Below, piece after piece: positions 4,155 through 55,504 of a stretch of DNA of 64,000 bases. Within the stretch, counting starts at the first letter, position 1. Each line of letters opens with the position of its first letter. Under the pieces are notes generated by a model. It was given only the letters and a program-made list of their open reading frames with translations, had not been told where the DNA came from and did not search any database. The position numbers were made by a program, and so were the translations under genes. The DNA comes from Bacteroidota bacterium (lineage in GTDB: Bacteria; Bacteroidota; Bacteroidia; Palsa-948): positions 62,001 through 126,000 of the forward strand of contig PLUL01000021.1 in the NCBI GenBank assembly GCA_003164895.1, read 5' to 3'.

Positions 4155-4355
4155 ATGAAAGCTGCAATCGGAAAAATGTTGAAACGAGAAAGGTGCAAAA
4201 GCTACAGTTCTCAAAAAGAAATTGGAGATAAAATTAATGCCGACAAACAATACATCTCCAATGTAGAGAACGGACACAAGAATCTTACGATTGAACAACT
4301 GGAGCAAATTGTAAATGCCATTGGATGCACTCACGAAGACATTTTTAAACTTTAA
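4155..4355 (+). CDS. Small XRE/Cro-C1 family DNA-binding protein
   Basis: A 66-residue protein that is almost entirely one helix-turn-helix domain of the Cro/C1 type: RERCKSYSSQKEIGDKINADKQYISNVENG followed by LTIEQLEQIVNAIG. The recognition helix is around QYISNVENG. It has no extra domain, which is usual for single-domain phage- or island-type regulators. It lies 26 bases upstream of the heptad-repeat ORF and on the same strand as the 210-residue protein beyond it, so all three may be transcribed together. What it regulates cannot be seen from the sequence. Confidence 0.88.
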   Translation: MKAAIGKMLKRERCKSYSSQKEIGDKINADKQYISNVENGHKNLTIEQLEQIVNAIGCTHEDIFKL

Positions 4356-4381: not shown

Positions 4382-4780
4382 ATGAACGAAACATCCAACC
4401 CCACCAATTTGAACACTAACACTCGTAATGAGACATGCAACTCTGTTGGTTGCATGTGCAACTATACCGATTTGAAATCCAATTGGGTGAATTTGAAACC
4501 CAATTACGATAATTTGAAAGCCAACCGTACCGGTTTGAAATACAACACCGAGAATTTGATGTCAAACAATACAAATTGCACATCCAACCCGTTCAATGAG
4601 ATATATAACACGCGCAGTTGGGTTTCAAACACTGCCAATGAAAGACCTAACCCGCCTGATTGGATGTCAAACCCCACCGGTTTGAACTTTCCTGCAAAAA
4701 ATGAACAAAAAACAACTATAAACCAAACAACCTATGAAAGTAAAAGTAAACCTTGGCTTGCACAGCACGAGCGATGCTGA
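4382..4780 (+). CDS. Asn-rich heptad-repeat ORF built from 21-bp units
   Basis: After the initiator Met, residues 2-99 are fourteen uninterrupted heptads of the form N-L-x-x-N-x-x (for example NLKPNYD, NLKANRT, GLKYNTE, NEIYNTR, DWMSNPT). Position 5 is Asn in all fourteen. Position 1 is Asn, Gly, Asp or Ser, and position 2 mostly Leu, Glu, Cys or Trp. At DNA level this is a perfect 21-bp period from 4385 to 4678. Asn uses both AAC and AAT at position 5, which suggests selection on the residue. There is no signal peptide. The tail after residue 103 overlaps the next gene by 47 bases and looks non-conserved. I know no named family; pentapeptide repeats are the nearest analogy but have a different period. 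Translation is likely but unproven, and the array could act at DNA or RNA level. Confidence 0.55.
   Translation: MNETSNPTNLNTNTRNETCNSVGCMCNYTDLKSNWVNLKPNYDNLKANRTGLKYNTENLMSNNTNCTSNPFNEIYNTRSWVSNTANERPNPPDWMSNPTGLNFPAKNEQKTTINQTTYESKSKPWLAQHERC
4385..4678 (+). repeat. Fourteen 21-bp tandem units (locus 1)
   Basis: Fourteen units of exactly 21 bp with no indel. Bases 1-3 are usually AAY or a purine-purine-T triplet, base 7 is A in 13 of 14, and bases 13-15 are AAC or AAT in every unit. The other positions are free. The same grammar recurs in minus orientation at 41650-42090. All units are open in the coding frame. Confidence 0.9.
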
Positions 4781-5366
4781 TGCAATTATTGACGGCAGAC
4801 AAATTGTGCAGAAAATGACGGGCAACGCAAATTTTGGCTTGGCAACCAATCCAATTAATCCGCCTCTGCTCACTGTAAGCAAAGCGATTGACGATGTGGA
4901 AGCAGCATCAACTGCCGCGCAAGATGCCAGTACTGCCGCTACAAGAAACCTGTACCAGAAACGTCATGTGTATGATACGCTGGTAACCAAGTTGAGTCAT
5001 TATGTGGAGGATACGGCAAATGACCCTGCCATTACGGATGACAAACGTGAGGGAATTGTGGTGAGTGCAGGAATGACAATTAAAATAAAAACTCCTCGCC
5101 AAAAGCAGCACTTTGAAGCACGCAACACCGATCTTAGCGGCACAGTGCGATTGATTGCCGAAGGAATTGCCAGGTGTGCGCACGAATGGAATTACACACC
5201 CGATGTGGTTAATTTTACAAACCGCATAGCAATAGATTCAACCACCACCGCGCATACCGATGTGCATGGCTTGGTGAGCGGAGCCAAGTATGCTTTTTTT
5301 CATAAACAAATTATTGCAGGTGCAAAAAGCGATTGGGAAGGACCAGTAATTTTACCTGTAACGTAA
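4734..5366 (+). CDS. Conserved-looking 210-residue protein of unknown function
   Basis: A 210-residue protein without signal peptide. The N-terminal part (MKVKVNLGLHSTSDADAIID, then MTGNANF) leads into an Ala/Thr-rich helical stretch at residues 50-75. The middle contains GIVVSAGMTIKIK. The C-terminal 60 residues (IDSTTTAHTDVHGLVSGAKYAFFHK to DWEGPVILPV) look like a single fibronectin type III-like beta sandwich. I recognise the general look from Bacteroidota genomes but know no function. Its start overlaps the tail of the heptad-repeat ORF and a terminator follows, so it is probably the last gene of a transcript that begins at or before the XRE gene. A structural or surface-display role is only a guess. 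Confidence 0.78.
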   Translation: MKVKVNLGLHSTSDADAIIDGRQIVQKMTGNANFGLATNPINPPLLTVSKAIDDVEAASTAAQDASTAATRNLYQKRHVYDTLVTKLSHYVEDTANDPAITDDKREGIVVSAGMTIKIKTPRQKQHFEARNTDLSGTVRLIAEGIARCAHEWNYTPDVVNFTNRIAIDSTTTAHTDVHGLVSGAKYAFFHKQIIAGAKSDWEGPVILPVT

Positions 5367-5387: not shown

Positions 5388-5424
5388 AAATCCCTTGGCA
5401 TTTATTGTCAGGGGATTTTTGTTT
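5388..5424 (+). terminator. Intrinsic terminator after the 210-residue protein gene
   Basis: Ten-base-pair stem with one G-T pair (AAATCCCTTG against CAGGGGATTT), an 11-base loop and a T-run. It lies 22 bases past the stop and closes the island transcript. Confidence 0.75.
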
Positions 5425-36758: not shown

Positions 36759-38672
36759 ATGAAACAATCTCTCCGAGAAATACAATTATTATTGATTCGA
36801 TTATCGGTTGCACTTCTCACCTACCCGCTTTGCAAAATACTTTTCTTCGCCTTTAATCATAAATATTTTTCAGATGTTTCATTCTCGGATTTTATTGCAA
36901 TTCTTTTCTTTGGATTAAGGTTTGATATTTCAGCTTTGATACTGATGAATTCTTTATTCATTATTCTGCATATTCTGCCATTCGGATTCACAAGAAAAAA
37001 ACCATATCAGTTATTATTAAAAACTGTTTTCATCATCTCAAACTCAATTGCAATTCTTGCTAACTGCGTTGATTTCGAATATTTCAAATTCACTCTCAAA
37101 CACACCACATCAGATTTTTTCAGCTTGTTTGGTCTTGGTTCGGATATGTCCACCATGCTACCGCAATACATTAGAGATTTCTGGCACATCATTCTTATTT
37201 GGATTCTCATTTCACTCTTTATTACTTTTCTTTATAATAAAACAAATCGATTGCTAATGAAATTTCAAGAAAACAATTTTAATATCAAAATATTTCTTTC
37301 TTGGTTTCTACTAAGCATCTCTATTATCGGGCTGAGCATAATTGGTTTCCGTGGAGGATTACAGCTAAGACCCATCATGACCATCAATGCTTCTGAATAT
37401 GTTTCAGCAAAAAATATTCCACTTATTATCAATACTCCATTTTCAATTATCAAAAGTTACGGTCTGGAACAATTAGAAGAGAAAAAATATTTTTCACAGG
37501 AGGAATTAAAAAAATTATTTAACCCCACCCATTTCGAACTCCGAACTCCGAACTCCGAATTCCGAACAAATGTTTTCGTTATTATCATGGAAAGTTTTTC
37601 AAAAGAATATATTGGCGCGTTGAGCGGAAAGAAAAGCTACACGCCATTTCTTGATTCGCTTATAAAAGAAAGTTTAGTGTTTACTAATGCTTTTGCAAAC
37701 GGGAAAAGATCCATCGAAGGAATTCCTGCTGTGTTGGCAAGCATTCCTTCACTGATGAATGAATCCTATATCACATCGTCTTATTGCGGAAATAAATTTT
37801 CTTCACTTGCAAACACACTGAAGCGAAAAAGGTATTCTTCTGCATTTTTTCATGGCGGCTCAAATGGCACAATGGGTTTTGATGTATTTACAAAAGCTGC
37901 TGGTTTTGATAATTATTATGGGAGAACTGAATACAATAACGAAAAAGATTATGATGGCGATTGGGGAATTCCTGACGATAAGTTTTTGATTTATTCAGGA
38001 AAAGAAGTTAGCAAAATGAAAAAACCATTTTTAGCTGCTTTATTTTCTCTTTCATCGCATCACCCTTTTCAAGTCCCTGTCGAATACAAAAAATATTTTC
38101 TCGAAGAAGGTCAGCCAATTTTAAAAAGCGTGAGGTATGCAGATTTTTCTTTAAAGAAATTTTTTGAGTCCATTTCAAAAGAAAATTGGTTTGACAGTAC
38201 GCTCTTTGTCATCACTGCCGATCATACTGGACCCTCCACCGATAATTTTTACGGGAACAGTGTCGGTAGCTTTGAAGTTCCGATTTTATTTTATAAGCAT
38301 AACAGTTCGCTGAAAGGAATTAATTCCAAAACGACTCAACAAATTGACATCATGCCAAGCGTTCTCGGCTACTTGAACTATGGAGAAGAATATTTTTCTC
38401 TTGGTGAAAATAGTTTAGACACAACAACAGGAGGATTTGCGGTCAATTTCATTAATGATGTTTATCAGATTTTTCAGGATGATTATTTGCTTCAGTTTGA
38501 CGGACTGAAAACAATTTCATTTTATAATTACAAAAAGGATTCCCTTCTTACAGACAACCTCATTGGAAAGCTTCCTCAAAAAGAAAAAGCAATGGGAACA
38601 AAGTTAAAAGCTATCATTCAAACTTTTAACTACGGAATGATTCACAATAAAATGGTTTCAAAATCAGAATGA
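36759..38672 (+). CDS. LTA synthase/phosphoglycerol transferase-like membrane sulfatase-fold enzyme
   Basis: A 637-residue protein starting at ATG 36759. About five membrane helices cover residues 1-200 (GLRFDISALILMNSLF); the linker FRGGLQLRPIMTINASEY follows. The catalytic alkaline-phosphatase-superfamily domain (270-560) has VFVIIMESFSKEY with the metal-binding Glu, NGKRSIEGIPAVLASIP with Ser where LTA synthase uses Thr as nucleophile, FHGGSNGTMGFD, SSHHPFQVP and FVITADHTGP. Family members transfer glycerol-phosphate or phosphoethanolamine headgroups from phospholipids to a periplasmic acceptor. Its ATGA overlap with a diacylglycerol kinase suggests the leftover diacylglycerol is recycled. 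Residues 240-255 are encoded by a 7-bp repeat. Confidence 0.9.
   Translation: MKQSLREIQLLLIRLSVALLTYPLCKILFFAFNHKYFSDVSFSDFIAILFFGLRFDISALILMNSLFIILHILPFGFTRKKPYQLLLKTVFIISNSIAILANCVDFEYFKFTLKHTTSDFFSLFGLGSDMSTMLPQYIRDFWHIILIWILISLFITFLYNKTNRLLMKFQENNFNIKIFLSWFLLSISIIGLSIIGFRGGLQLRPIMTINASEYVSAKNIPLIINTPFSIIKSYGLEQLEEKKYFSQEELKKLFNPTHFELRTPNSEFRTNVFVIIMESFSKEYIGALSGKKSYTPFLDSLIKESLVFTNAFANGKRSIEGIPAVLASIPSLMNESYITSSYCGNKFSSLANTLKRKRYSSAFFHGGSNGTMGFDVFTKAAGFDNYYGRTEYNNEKDYDGDWGIPDDKFLIYSGKEVSKMKKPFLAALFSLSSHHPFQVPVEYKKYFLEEGQPILKSVRYADFSLKKFFESISKENWFDSTLFVITADHTGPSTDNFYGNSVGSFEVPILFYKHNSSLKGINSKTTQQIDIMPSVLGYLNYGEEYFSLGENSLDTTTGGFAVNFINDVYQIFQDDYLLQFDGLKTISFYNYKKDSLLTDNLIGKLPQKEKAMGTKLKAIIQTFNYGMIHNKMVSKSE
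37533..37567 (+). repeat. Five 7-bp units inside the LTA synthase-like gene
   Basis: TTCGAAC, TCCGAAC, TCCGAAC, TCCGAAT, TCCGAAC. They encode FELRTPNSEFRT, the linker between membrane and catalytic parts, and keep the frame open. Confidence 0.88.
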
Positions 38673-41525: not shown

Positions 41526-41649
41526 AAATCTGCGAAATACGAATTTGTACGAAAGTACGAAAACAAATATCTAAAAGTTGTTTGTTTTTGCTATTACTCA
41601 AAGTGTTTCTGCGCTTTATTTGCACTTTTTCATCGTTTAACATGAAAAT

Positions 41650-42090
41650 ATCTCGATTAATTTTGCTGTTTTTACTGTTAATTGCTCTGTTTTAGATGTT
41701 AGACCCTGTGTTTTTACTTCTCATTTTTAATTTATACTCATTAAATCTTAATTTTTAACTATTAATTGCTCTGTTTCTGCTGTTGACTTTGGTGTTTTAT
41801 AATCTCATTTTAAAATTATCCTTATTAAAAGTAAAATTATCGGTGTTGATGTTGATGTTAACGCTGTTAACTATGGCGTTTTCAAATCTCAATTTTAAAT
41901 TATCCTTAATAAAAGTAAAGTTATCTGCGTTAACGGTGATGTTGACGCTGTTAATGAGGATGTTTTCAAATCTCAATTAAAAAACAGCATTATTCAAAAT
42001 AAAATTAACTCAGTTAACTGCTGTGTTGACATTGTGAATGCTAGTGTTTTTACTGTGAGCTTTGGTGTTGGAGCAATTAACTTCAATGTT
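41650..42090 (-). repeat. Twenty-one 21-bp units (locus 2), with an 84-bp higher-order period
   Basis: Read on the minus strand, 21 units of exactly 21 bp follow without indel. Bases 1-3 are AAY in 18 of 21 and bases 13-15 AAY in 14 of 21, the same grammar as 4385-4678. Every fourth unit (41713, 41797, 41881, 41965) has AGA at bases 13-15, so four units form an 84-bp super-repeat. Five units contain an in-frame stop, so this array is not a plain ORF on either strand. It fills most of the 632-base gap between xerD and the next sorted protein. The remaining bases 41526-41649 and 42106-42157 hold xerD upstream sequence and a C/G-rich hairpin (near 42125-42150). Confidence 0.85.
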
Positions 42091-42157
42091 AACGCTCACA
42101 ATTTCCTAAAGGGCTTTGTATTTCTCCCCCTCTCTGAGGGGGTTTGGGGGAGGCAGG

Positions 42158-53695: not shown

Positions 53696-55504
53696 ATGAA
53701 AAAACATTTATTGTTTCTTACTGATCAACGAATCGTAAATAGGAATACGCCAAATGCGATAAACCTTAATAGATTTTCCCCTTATTGCTATTCGCTTACA
53801 ACTTATTTCTTTTGCTTTATTATTTTTTATCTATTCCTTATTCTTCCTTGCACTGCACAAAACTGGCTTTGGTCAAAAAGTGCCATCGGCTCACGAACAG
53901 ATGAAGGAATTTCGGTAAGTGCAGATGCAAGCGGAAATGTTTTTTTTACCGGATATTTTTACAGCCCCACCATCACTTTCGGTTCAATCACTCTCATCAA
54001 TGCAGATACATCCACCACCGATGATGGTTTTGATGATGTATTTGTTGCCAAATACGATGCCAACGGAAATGTACTTTGGGCAAAATGTGCAGGTGGAATT
54101 AATTATGATGAAGGTTATTCCGTTAGCGCAGACGCAAACGGAAATGCATTCGTTGCAGGATACTTTTACAGCACAGCCATTACGTTTGGAACAACTACAT
54201 TGATAAATGCAGATACCGCAGGTATTACTCAGGATGTTTTCATAGCAAAATACGATGCTAACGGAAATGTGCTTTGGGCAAAACGTGCCGGTGGAATTAA
54301 TTATGATGAAGGTTATTCCGTTAGCGCAGATGCAAATGGCAATGTTTATCTGACAGGATATTTTTATAGTCCAACTATTACTTTCGGCAACACTACTCTC
54401 ACCAATGCAGATACGTCGGGAAATTCTGATGATTTATTTATTGTTAAATATGATCTCAATGGAAATATTCTTTGGGCAAAACGCGCAGGAGGTTTAAAGA
54501 ATGATGAAGGATATTCCCTAAGTGCCGATGCAAATGGCAATGTACTTCTTACCGGATATTTTTCCAGCCCCACCATTTCTTTCGGGAACACAACTCTCAC
54601 AAATGCTGATCCATCTGGAATCACCGATGATATTTTTATTGCTAAATATGATTCAAGCGGAAATGTACTTTGGGCGAAATCTGTTGGTGGAACAAATTAT
54701 GATTACGGTTATTCAGTTAGCGCAGATGCAAGCGGTAATGCATTTATTACAGGAGCATTTGAAAGTTCAAGTATTACTTTTGGCTCCACAACACTTACCA
54801 ACGCGGCAAGTGAGTTTACCAATGTCTTCATTGCGAAATATGATTCCAATGGAAATTTTCTTTGGGCAAAAAGTGCCGGAGGCACGCAACAAGATGCAGG
54901 ATATTCAATAAGTGCCGACGCAAATGGCAATGCATTTGTTACCGGATCGTTTTATAGTTCGCAAATTATTTTCGGTTCCGATACGCTCACACCTCCTGCG
55001 GGTTCTGCTGACCCAATGTTTATTGTAAAGTACGATGCAAATGGAAATGTTCTTTGTGCCTCAGCTCTTTCGAGCGGTGGTGATGATCAAAACGGTGTTT
55101 CCGCCGATGCTTTCGGCAACGCATATATTGGCGGCGATTTCGAAGCGAATCCTTTCATTGTAGGAACAGATACTTTATCTCTTATCGGCGGAGAAAATGT
55201 TTTTGTTGCAAAATATAAATGCAATAACACAAACACAGTGAATGAATTAATTGGCAGGGAAAATGTGGAGGTCTATCCTAATCCAACTAATGGAGTATTT
55301 CGAATACAAATGGATAATGGAAAATTGTCAATTGAAAATTATCAATTATCAATTTATAATGTGCTTGGAGAATGTATTAATCAGCAAATAATTAAATCTC
55401 CAAATCAACAAATTGATTTAAGCTTTGTGCCAAACGGTATTTATTTCCTTCAACTGCTGAACAGTGACGGAATTATTTCAAAAAAAATAATGGTAGAGAA
55501 GTAA
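53696..55504 (+). CDS. Secreted SBBP-like repeat protein with type IX sorting domain
   Basis: A 602-residue protein. Its hydrophobic signal (YFFCFIIFYLFLILPCTAQ) starts only at about residue 36, an unusually long N-region; a shorter start is not evident. Residues 56-480 contain about seven near-identical repeats (YSVSADANGNVYLTGYFYSPTITFGNTTLTNAD, IFIAKYDANGNVLWAKRAGG), like SBBP/beta-propeller repeats. The C-terminal 80 residues are a type A sorting domain (VEVYPNPTNGVFRIQM, LSIYNVLGECINQQ, FVPNGIYFLQLLNSDGIISKKIMVEK). A 7-bp repeat encodes part of it (55328-55355). Confidence 0.9.
   Translation: MKKHLLFLTDQRIVNRNTPNAINLNRFSPYCYSLTTYFFCFIIFYLFLILPCTAQNWLWSKSAIGSRTDEGISVSADASGNVFFTGYFYSPTITFGSITLINADTSTTDDGFDDVFVAKYDANGNVLWAKCAGGINYDEGYSVSADANGNAFVAGYFYSTAITFGTTTLINADTAGITQDVFIAKYDANGNVLWAKRAGGINYDEGYSVSADANGNVYLTGYFYSPTITFGNTTLTNADTSGNSDDLFIVKYDLNGNILWAKRAGGLKNDEGYSLSADANGNVLLTGYFSSPTISFGNTTLTNADPSGITDDIFIAKYDSSGNVLWAKSVGGTNYDYGYSVSADASGNAFITGAFESSSITFGSTTLTNAASEFTNVFIAKYDSNGNFLWAKSAGGTQQDAGYSISADANGNAFVTGSFYSSQIIFGSDTLTPPAGSADPMFIVKYDANGNVLCASALSSGGDDQNGVSADAFGNAYIGGDFEANPFIVGTDTLSLIGGENVFVAKYKCNNTNTVNELIGRENVEVYPNPTNGVFRIQMDNGKLSIENYQLSIYNVLGECINQQIIKSPNQQIDLSFVPNGIYFLQLLNSDGIISKKIMVEK
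55328..55355. repeat. Four 7-bp units inside the sorting-domain codons
   Basis: TCAATTG, AAAATTA, TCAATTA, TCAATTT, which encode LSIENYQLSI. The unit type matches the intergenic array at 367-443. Confidence 0.75.

Follow-up and report, generated by a model that had tools for sequence, protein, structure and literature searches.

The question raised by this locus is whether a 21-bp tandem repeat encodes a heptad repeat protein or serves as DNA. In the 64-kb stretch that was analysed (the window), an array of 14 × 21-bp units (about 4392–4687, no strand) is spanned in full by a 132-residue open reading frame (4382–4780, plus strand). A gene for a small XRE/HTH_3 regulator (4155–4355, plus strand) lies directly before the array. 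The frame overlaps by 47 bp the start of a gene for a 210-residue protein (4734–5366, plus strand), and 3′ of that gene a pattern match marks a terminator-like hairpin with a T run (5388–5418, plus strand). The initial annotation read the frame as a translated Asn-ladder heptad protein and placed it with the regulator and the 210-residue protein in one module.

The array and the reading frame through it

The fourteen units are contiguous and free of indels (4394–4687), as had been described. AAY and RRT occupy fixed positions, 9 and 12 bp apart. The AAY codon is present in 14/14 units (AAC 12, AAT 2), which bears out the reported invariant Asn with two codons in use. The RRT position encodes Asn in 8/14 units (Gly 3, Asp 2, Ser 1) and is followed by Leu in 7/14 (Glu 3, Cys 2, Trp 2), in agreement with the two restricted heptad residues noted before. 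The description of a ‘perfect’ N-L-x-x-N-x-x heptad was nevertheless overstated, because the second Asn alone is invariant. The third base of RRT is T in 14/14 units and the second Asn codon is mostly AAC, a hint that the constraint acts on DNA and not on codons. Rotated to its dyad axis, the unit consensus is nccAATTtGAnATCcAACnct, with a dyad symmetry of p = 0.002. Column-order permutations of the array left a gene-strand frame open in 18% of cases and at least one of the six frames open in 35%; an open frame is by itself weak evidence for coding.

A sliding scan placed the peak lag-21 self-match of the window at this array, and the only other strong site was at 41.6–42.1 kb. This second array (41642–42104, no strand) has 22 degenerate units with stops in every frame and the same AAY spacing as the first (AAY-6-AAY-9; 9 and 12 bp). 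It lies between a secreted-protein gene and an XerC/D-type recombinase gene, upstream of the latter, and has no relative of the 210-residue gene adjoining it. Two tandem repeats of other kinds were also seen in the window: a 7-bp repeat, CGAACTC, in 4.7 copies (37535–37567), and 198/396-bp repeats (53900–54954) that are probably protein-level repeats in a coding region.

Arrays recur beside two unrelated protein families

The 210-residue protein defines what we call family 1. Its AlphaFold model (pLDDT 95.1) consists of an N-terminal four-helix domain and a C-terminal fibronectin type III (FN3) domain. The earlier description of the protein as FN3-like holds for the C-terminal half, by profile as well as by fold, and this is the sole part with PDB relatives by sequence or structure (Foldseek). 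The four-helix domain had no match in Pfam, NCBIfam or the PDB, and neither Pfam nor NCBIfam assigns the whole protein to a family. No DNA-binding fold was found in the model or by fold search. The gene is under ordinary purifying selection over its whole length and the protein has no hypervariable patch.

Fetched family-1 loci were searched with a period-21 self-match detector that is blind to genes. An array (z ≥ 0.15) was found within 900 bp of the family-1 gene at 96/133 loci, 81 upstream and 15 downstream, with a median of 13 units (range 8–27). About a third of the loci had no array above threshold; since arrays were delimited without indels, irregular ones are missed in this figure, and many loci lie at contig ends. 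At a stricter cut (z ≥ 0.2), arrays occupied 74/235 flank bins at 0–900 bp vs 4/999 bins further out. Further family-1 loci carried an array in 40/59 cases, every one upstream. All eight family-1 genes (8/8) in 803 kb of the window's genome have an array; these 803 kb are about a quarter of that genome and their contigs were picked partly for carrying family genes. Other periods not divisible by 3 were almost absent. Array and 210-residue gene form one recurrent module; this supports the co-occurrence that had been proposed for them. The regulator that had been included in the same module does not recur: the window XRE used as query gave no relative beside other loci, and a distant HTH-like ORF was present on the XRE side at L056 and L075 only. 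We therefore rejected the XRE regulator as a constant partner.

The linkage is one-directional, because in the same 803 kb six arrays lack a family-1 gene; of these, one lies beside the gene of a second family. Two unlinked arrays that lack a family-1 gene (G000:C12:147128-147358 and G000:C35:18325-18555) have a common consensus, AAAAGGAGTTCCTTTT; AAAAGGATATCCTTTT, the consensus of an array at an Ignavibacteria family-1 gene (L169), may be compared with it. Family 2 is a 163-residue helical protein, unrelated to family 1, with no Pfam or PDB match (L234:2301-2789, i.e. G000:C7:41301-41789; relatives at loci L251–L268). Relatives were found in 15/198 Bacteroidota genomes. A 21-bp array is present at 14 of roughly 18 distinct family-2 loci, always downstream and usually 40–115 bp past the stop codon, and these arrays show dyad symmetry as in family 1. 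The single non-coding array in 400 kb of genome G130 adjoins a family-2 gene. At most one weak array candidate came from 400 kb of genome G045, in which neither family was detected. Arrays occur at two unrelated families, and the array is therefore a general element that accompanies at least two protein families. Both families were found with profiles seeded in one genus.

The arrays do not behave as coding sequence

The heptad protein is favoured by the window frame, which is open over all 14 units, by a period divisible by three (21 bp would be seven codons) and by ORFs that, in an alignment, begin in the same frame ahead of the L137 and L151 arrays. Both strands also show slightly more open frames than expected (60 vs 49 and 64 vs 55), with no codon signature seen. 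Against this, not one frame is open in 18 of 100 arrays, and the gene strand lacks an open frame in 37; in the L056 array each unit carries stops in all three frames of the gene strand. The initial annotation named stops in close relatives as evidence against translation, and homologous arrays contain them: orthologous arrays of Sphingobacterium are interrupted in all frames, with two in-frame stops conserved in 3/5. Column entropy at codon positions 1, 2 and 3 is 0.815, 0.774 and 0.763, so that third positions are not more variable and there is no synonymous freedom. The Asn pattern is confined to the window array. Nearly all other arrays have a different consensus, and no heptad residue pattern is common to them.

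We rejected a pentapeptide-type or heptad repeat protein because the open frame is not conserved in homologues and synonymous positions are not freer. It is very unlikely that the window array encodes the heptad protein first proposed, and translation into an Asn-ladder solenoid is highly improbable for the arrays as such. The ORF at 4382–4780 is most likely not a gene. We are instead confident that the array is the non-coding DNA partner in a two-part module.

Unit symmetry points to a constraint on duplex DNA

The spacing is exactly 21 bp, two turns of B-DNA, and symmetric sites are present at this helical multiple. Whole units are palindromic (reverse-complement) at p < 0.05 in 60/108 arrays, with a median p of 0.035. 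In a comparison with three control pairings, symmetry was found in 40/96 arrays vs 1, 4 and 6, and mirror and scrambled-complement controls of the dyad test were at chance level; the shuffle controls do not fully remove the relatedness of units. In 60/108 arrays units resemble the next but one more closely than the next, which indicates two alternating unit types. The idea that these are each other's reverse complements was tested and rejected. The end units of Sphingobacterium orthologues (L358, L359, L363, L365) keep palindromes like TGTACATGTACA while their inner units vary. The Bacteroidota promoter motif TAnnTTTG occurs between array and gene at 5/75 loci, equal to control.

Palindromic units could equally be read as hairpins, and a transcribed tandem-repeat RNA that binds the adjoining protein, comparable to type III toxin-antitoxin RNAs or to sponge RNAs, would suit a small-protein gene with 8–27 repeats mostly upstream of it. 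Pair counts are at odds with such an RNA. Watson-Crick pairs at symmetric positions number 3475, vs 3485 predicted from column make-up, which fits half-sites selected independently in the duplex and not an RNA stem. In-register covariation did not exceed the control pairings. Paired positions hold 617 G-T and 645 A-C combinations, i.e. there is no G-U bias. The lack of covariation and of G-U bias makes the constraint look like one on double-stranded DNA and not on an RNA hairpin or a protein. A hairpin in RNA or single-stranded DNA, judged by covariation, was thus not above control in register. A shift-tolerant folding test was weakly positive (mean z −0.53 vs −0.06 in a linkage-preserving control, p = 0.002). 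This compensatory signal, which is not predicted by a pure duplex-site model, is concentrated in a minority of arrays, so that some may form hairpins; among degenerate arrays, that of L080 and the family-2 array o41 fold strikingly. Rfam gave no match for the arrays, the family-1 protein is not ToxN-like and the arrays of family 2 lie downstream of the gene. Taking both sides together, we regard an RNA element as unlikely.

Array turnover and dispersal of the module

The array consensus is private to almost every array. Gene and flanks can be 70–85% identical with unrelated arrays between them (e.g. L137/L151 and L129/L134). Proteins that are 79–86% identical have mostly dissimilar arrays with slight residual similarity (mean z of array similarity 1.55, vs 0.17 for pairs at ≥ 50% identity). 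Because of these dissimilar arrays, and with no hypervariable patch in the protein, we rejected co-evolution of protein and array.

Bacteroidota carry family 1, as do scattered members of Verrucomicrobiota, Acidobacteriota, Ignavibacteria and Methylococcales (collection-wide scan); it is present in 28/61 Sphingobacterium genomes. Profile search gave maxima of 24, 17 and 15 copies per genome, and up to 18 within the window's genus. At four Verrucomicrobiota loci an ORF starting with MP[YF]DPT.P or similar follows 106–163 bp after the family-1 gene, on the same strand (L167:6784-7236, L168:1332-1985, L172:4226-4453, L177:6703-6972); one of the four has collagen-like repeats.

The high and variable copy number, unit alternation and fast turnover could mean that the array is a by-product, left behind as the gene is spread by copy-and-move or by template switching (slippage combined with quasi-palindrome correction); nothing would then bind the array as its partner. 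What dispersed paralogues have in common is chiefly the gene block, and their homology often stops at the edge of the array; in 2 to 3 of 5 orthologous pairs the array has diverged more than the adjoining leader, as such a process would lead one to expect. Other features look selected: no indel disturbs the exact 21-bp phasing through as many as 27 units, in which some columns are fixed and others free; unrelated arrays have the same geometry across phyla; and the side of the gene on which the array lies is constrained. No transposase is linked to the module. Y1 transposases (IS200-like, REP-associated type) lie within about 4 kb of L145, L155, L183, L196 and L206, and none was found in the window's genome. 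Direct search of phage, plasmid and viral collections gave no match to family 1. We consider a by-product or mobility signal rather unlikely, if a stronger contender than an RNA element.

Comparison with known systems

Plasmid iterons and centromere-like arrays (parS, parC) are helix-phased direct repeats of ~20 bp near a gene that bind multiple dimers. The 21-bp arrays resemble them as tandem direct repeats in step with the helix beside a gene, with symmetric sites. Unlike them, the 21-bp arrays are chromosomal and multi-copy and each has its own sequence, and the partner is an FN3-bearing protein, not one like Rep, ParB or ParR. Neither partner family had a match to a replication initiator or partition protein in Pfam, NCBIfam, PADLOC or by fold, and PADLOC and PHROGs gave nothing relevant to the module.

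In type III toxin-antitoxin systems (ToxIN, CptIN) a tandem repeat array lies by a small-protein gene and its repeats bind copies of the protein (PMC8860590, PMC4627078). A tandem array adjoining a protein gene is thus a layout common to both. The type III repeats are about 34–48 nt long, whereas those described here are 21 bp with duplex symmetry and no G-U bias. The ToxN-family endoribonuclease fold is absent from the family-1 model, for which Foldseek returned FN3 only. REP/BIME palindromes with their RAYT transposases are likewise short intergenic palindromic units (PMC3733652). REP sequences are genome-wide, whereas the 21-bp units are private to each array. We rejected REP/BIME since the window motif is not dispersed (it matches its own array and a single other place only) and the genome has no Y1 transposase. 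Intergenic TAACTGA heptamers are repeated in tandem near gene starts in Beggiatoaceae, Cyanobacteria and Bacteroidetes; they are one fixed 7-bp sequence with period 7 and no partner gene family described (PMC4679880), and the 21-bp arrays differ in this. A CRISPR array was rejected because the 21-bp units are contiguous, with no spacers.

A proposed nucleoprotein platform

Where dimers line up along one face of DNA, their sites usually have two-fold symmetry and are spaced by two helical turns. We suggest that the array is the cis half of the module, a binding platform, and the family-1 gene (elsewhere the family-2 gene) the other half; we put the probability of this overall explanation at about 0.5. 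Each unit would be a site with two-fold symmetry in the duplex, and 8–27 such units, in phase with the helix, may serve as a platform that aligns the dimers of a DNA-binding protein on a single face. This dimer-bound form of the platform is put forward tentatively. A binding protein for the array was not identified, AlphaFold and Foldseek giving the FN3 half only. The binder may read the repeated geometry, may co-evolve very fast or may be a third protein. The slow evolution of the 210-residue protein, against total change in the array, and its lack of a DNA-binding fold point to a binder that reads geometry or to a third protein; the 210-residue protein is unlikely to be a sequence-specific reader. 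The small protein may be under the control of the nucleoprotein patch, be tethered to it or travel with it.

No description of such arrays was found in the literature, in a search of open-licence papers that may miss prior work. With no matching system or description, we file this as a new kind of module. It is likely that private-sequence, quasi-palindromic 21-bp arrays with the same geometry across phyla, associated with at least two small-protein families and present up to 24-fold per genome, are a class of bacterial module that has gone undescribed. The case illustrates how a 21-bp DNA period can mimic a heptad repeat protein. It also connects two widespread families of proteins with a DNA element that went unrecognized by every annotation library we used. 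The module is chromosomal and multi-copy and is present in genera that are easily handled in the laboratory, Sphingobacterium among them. Its conserved spacing and symmetry, combined with free sequence, are unusual and imply that geometry is recognized, that co-evolution is very fast or that some process builds the arrays.
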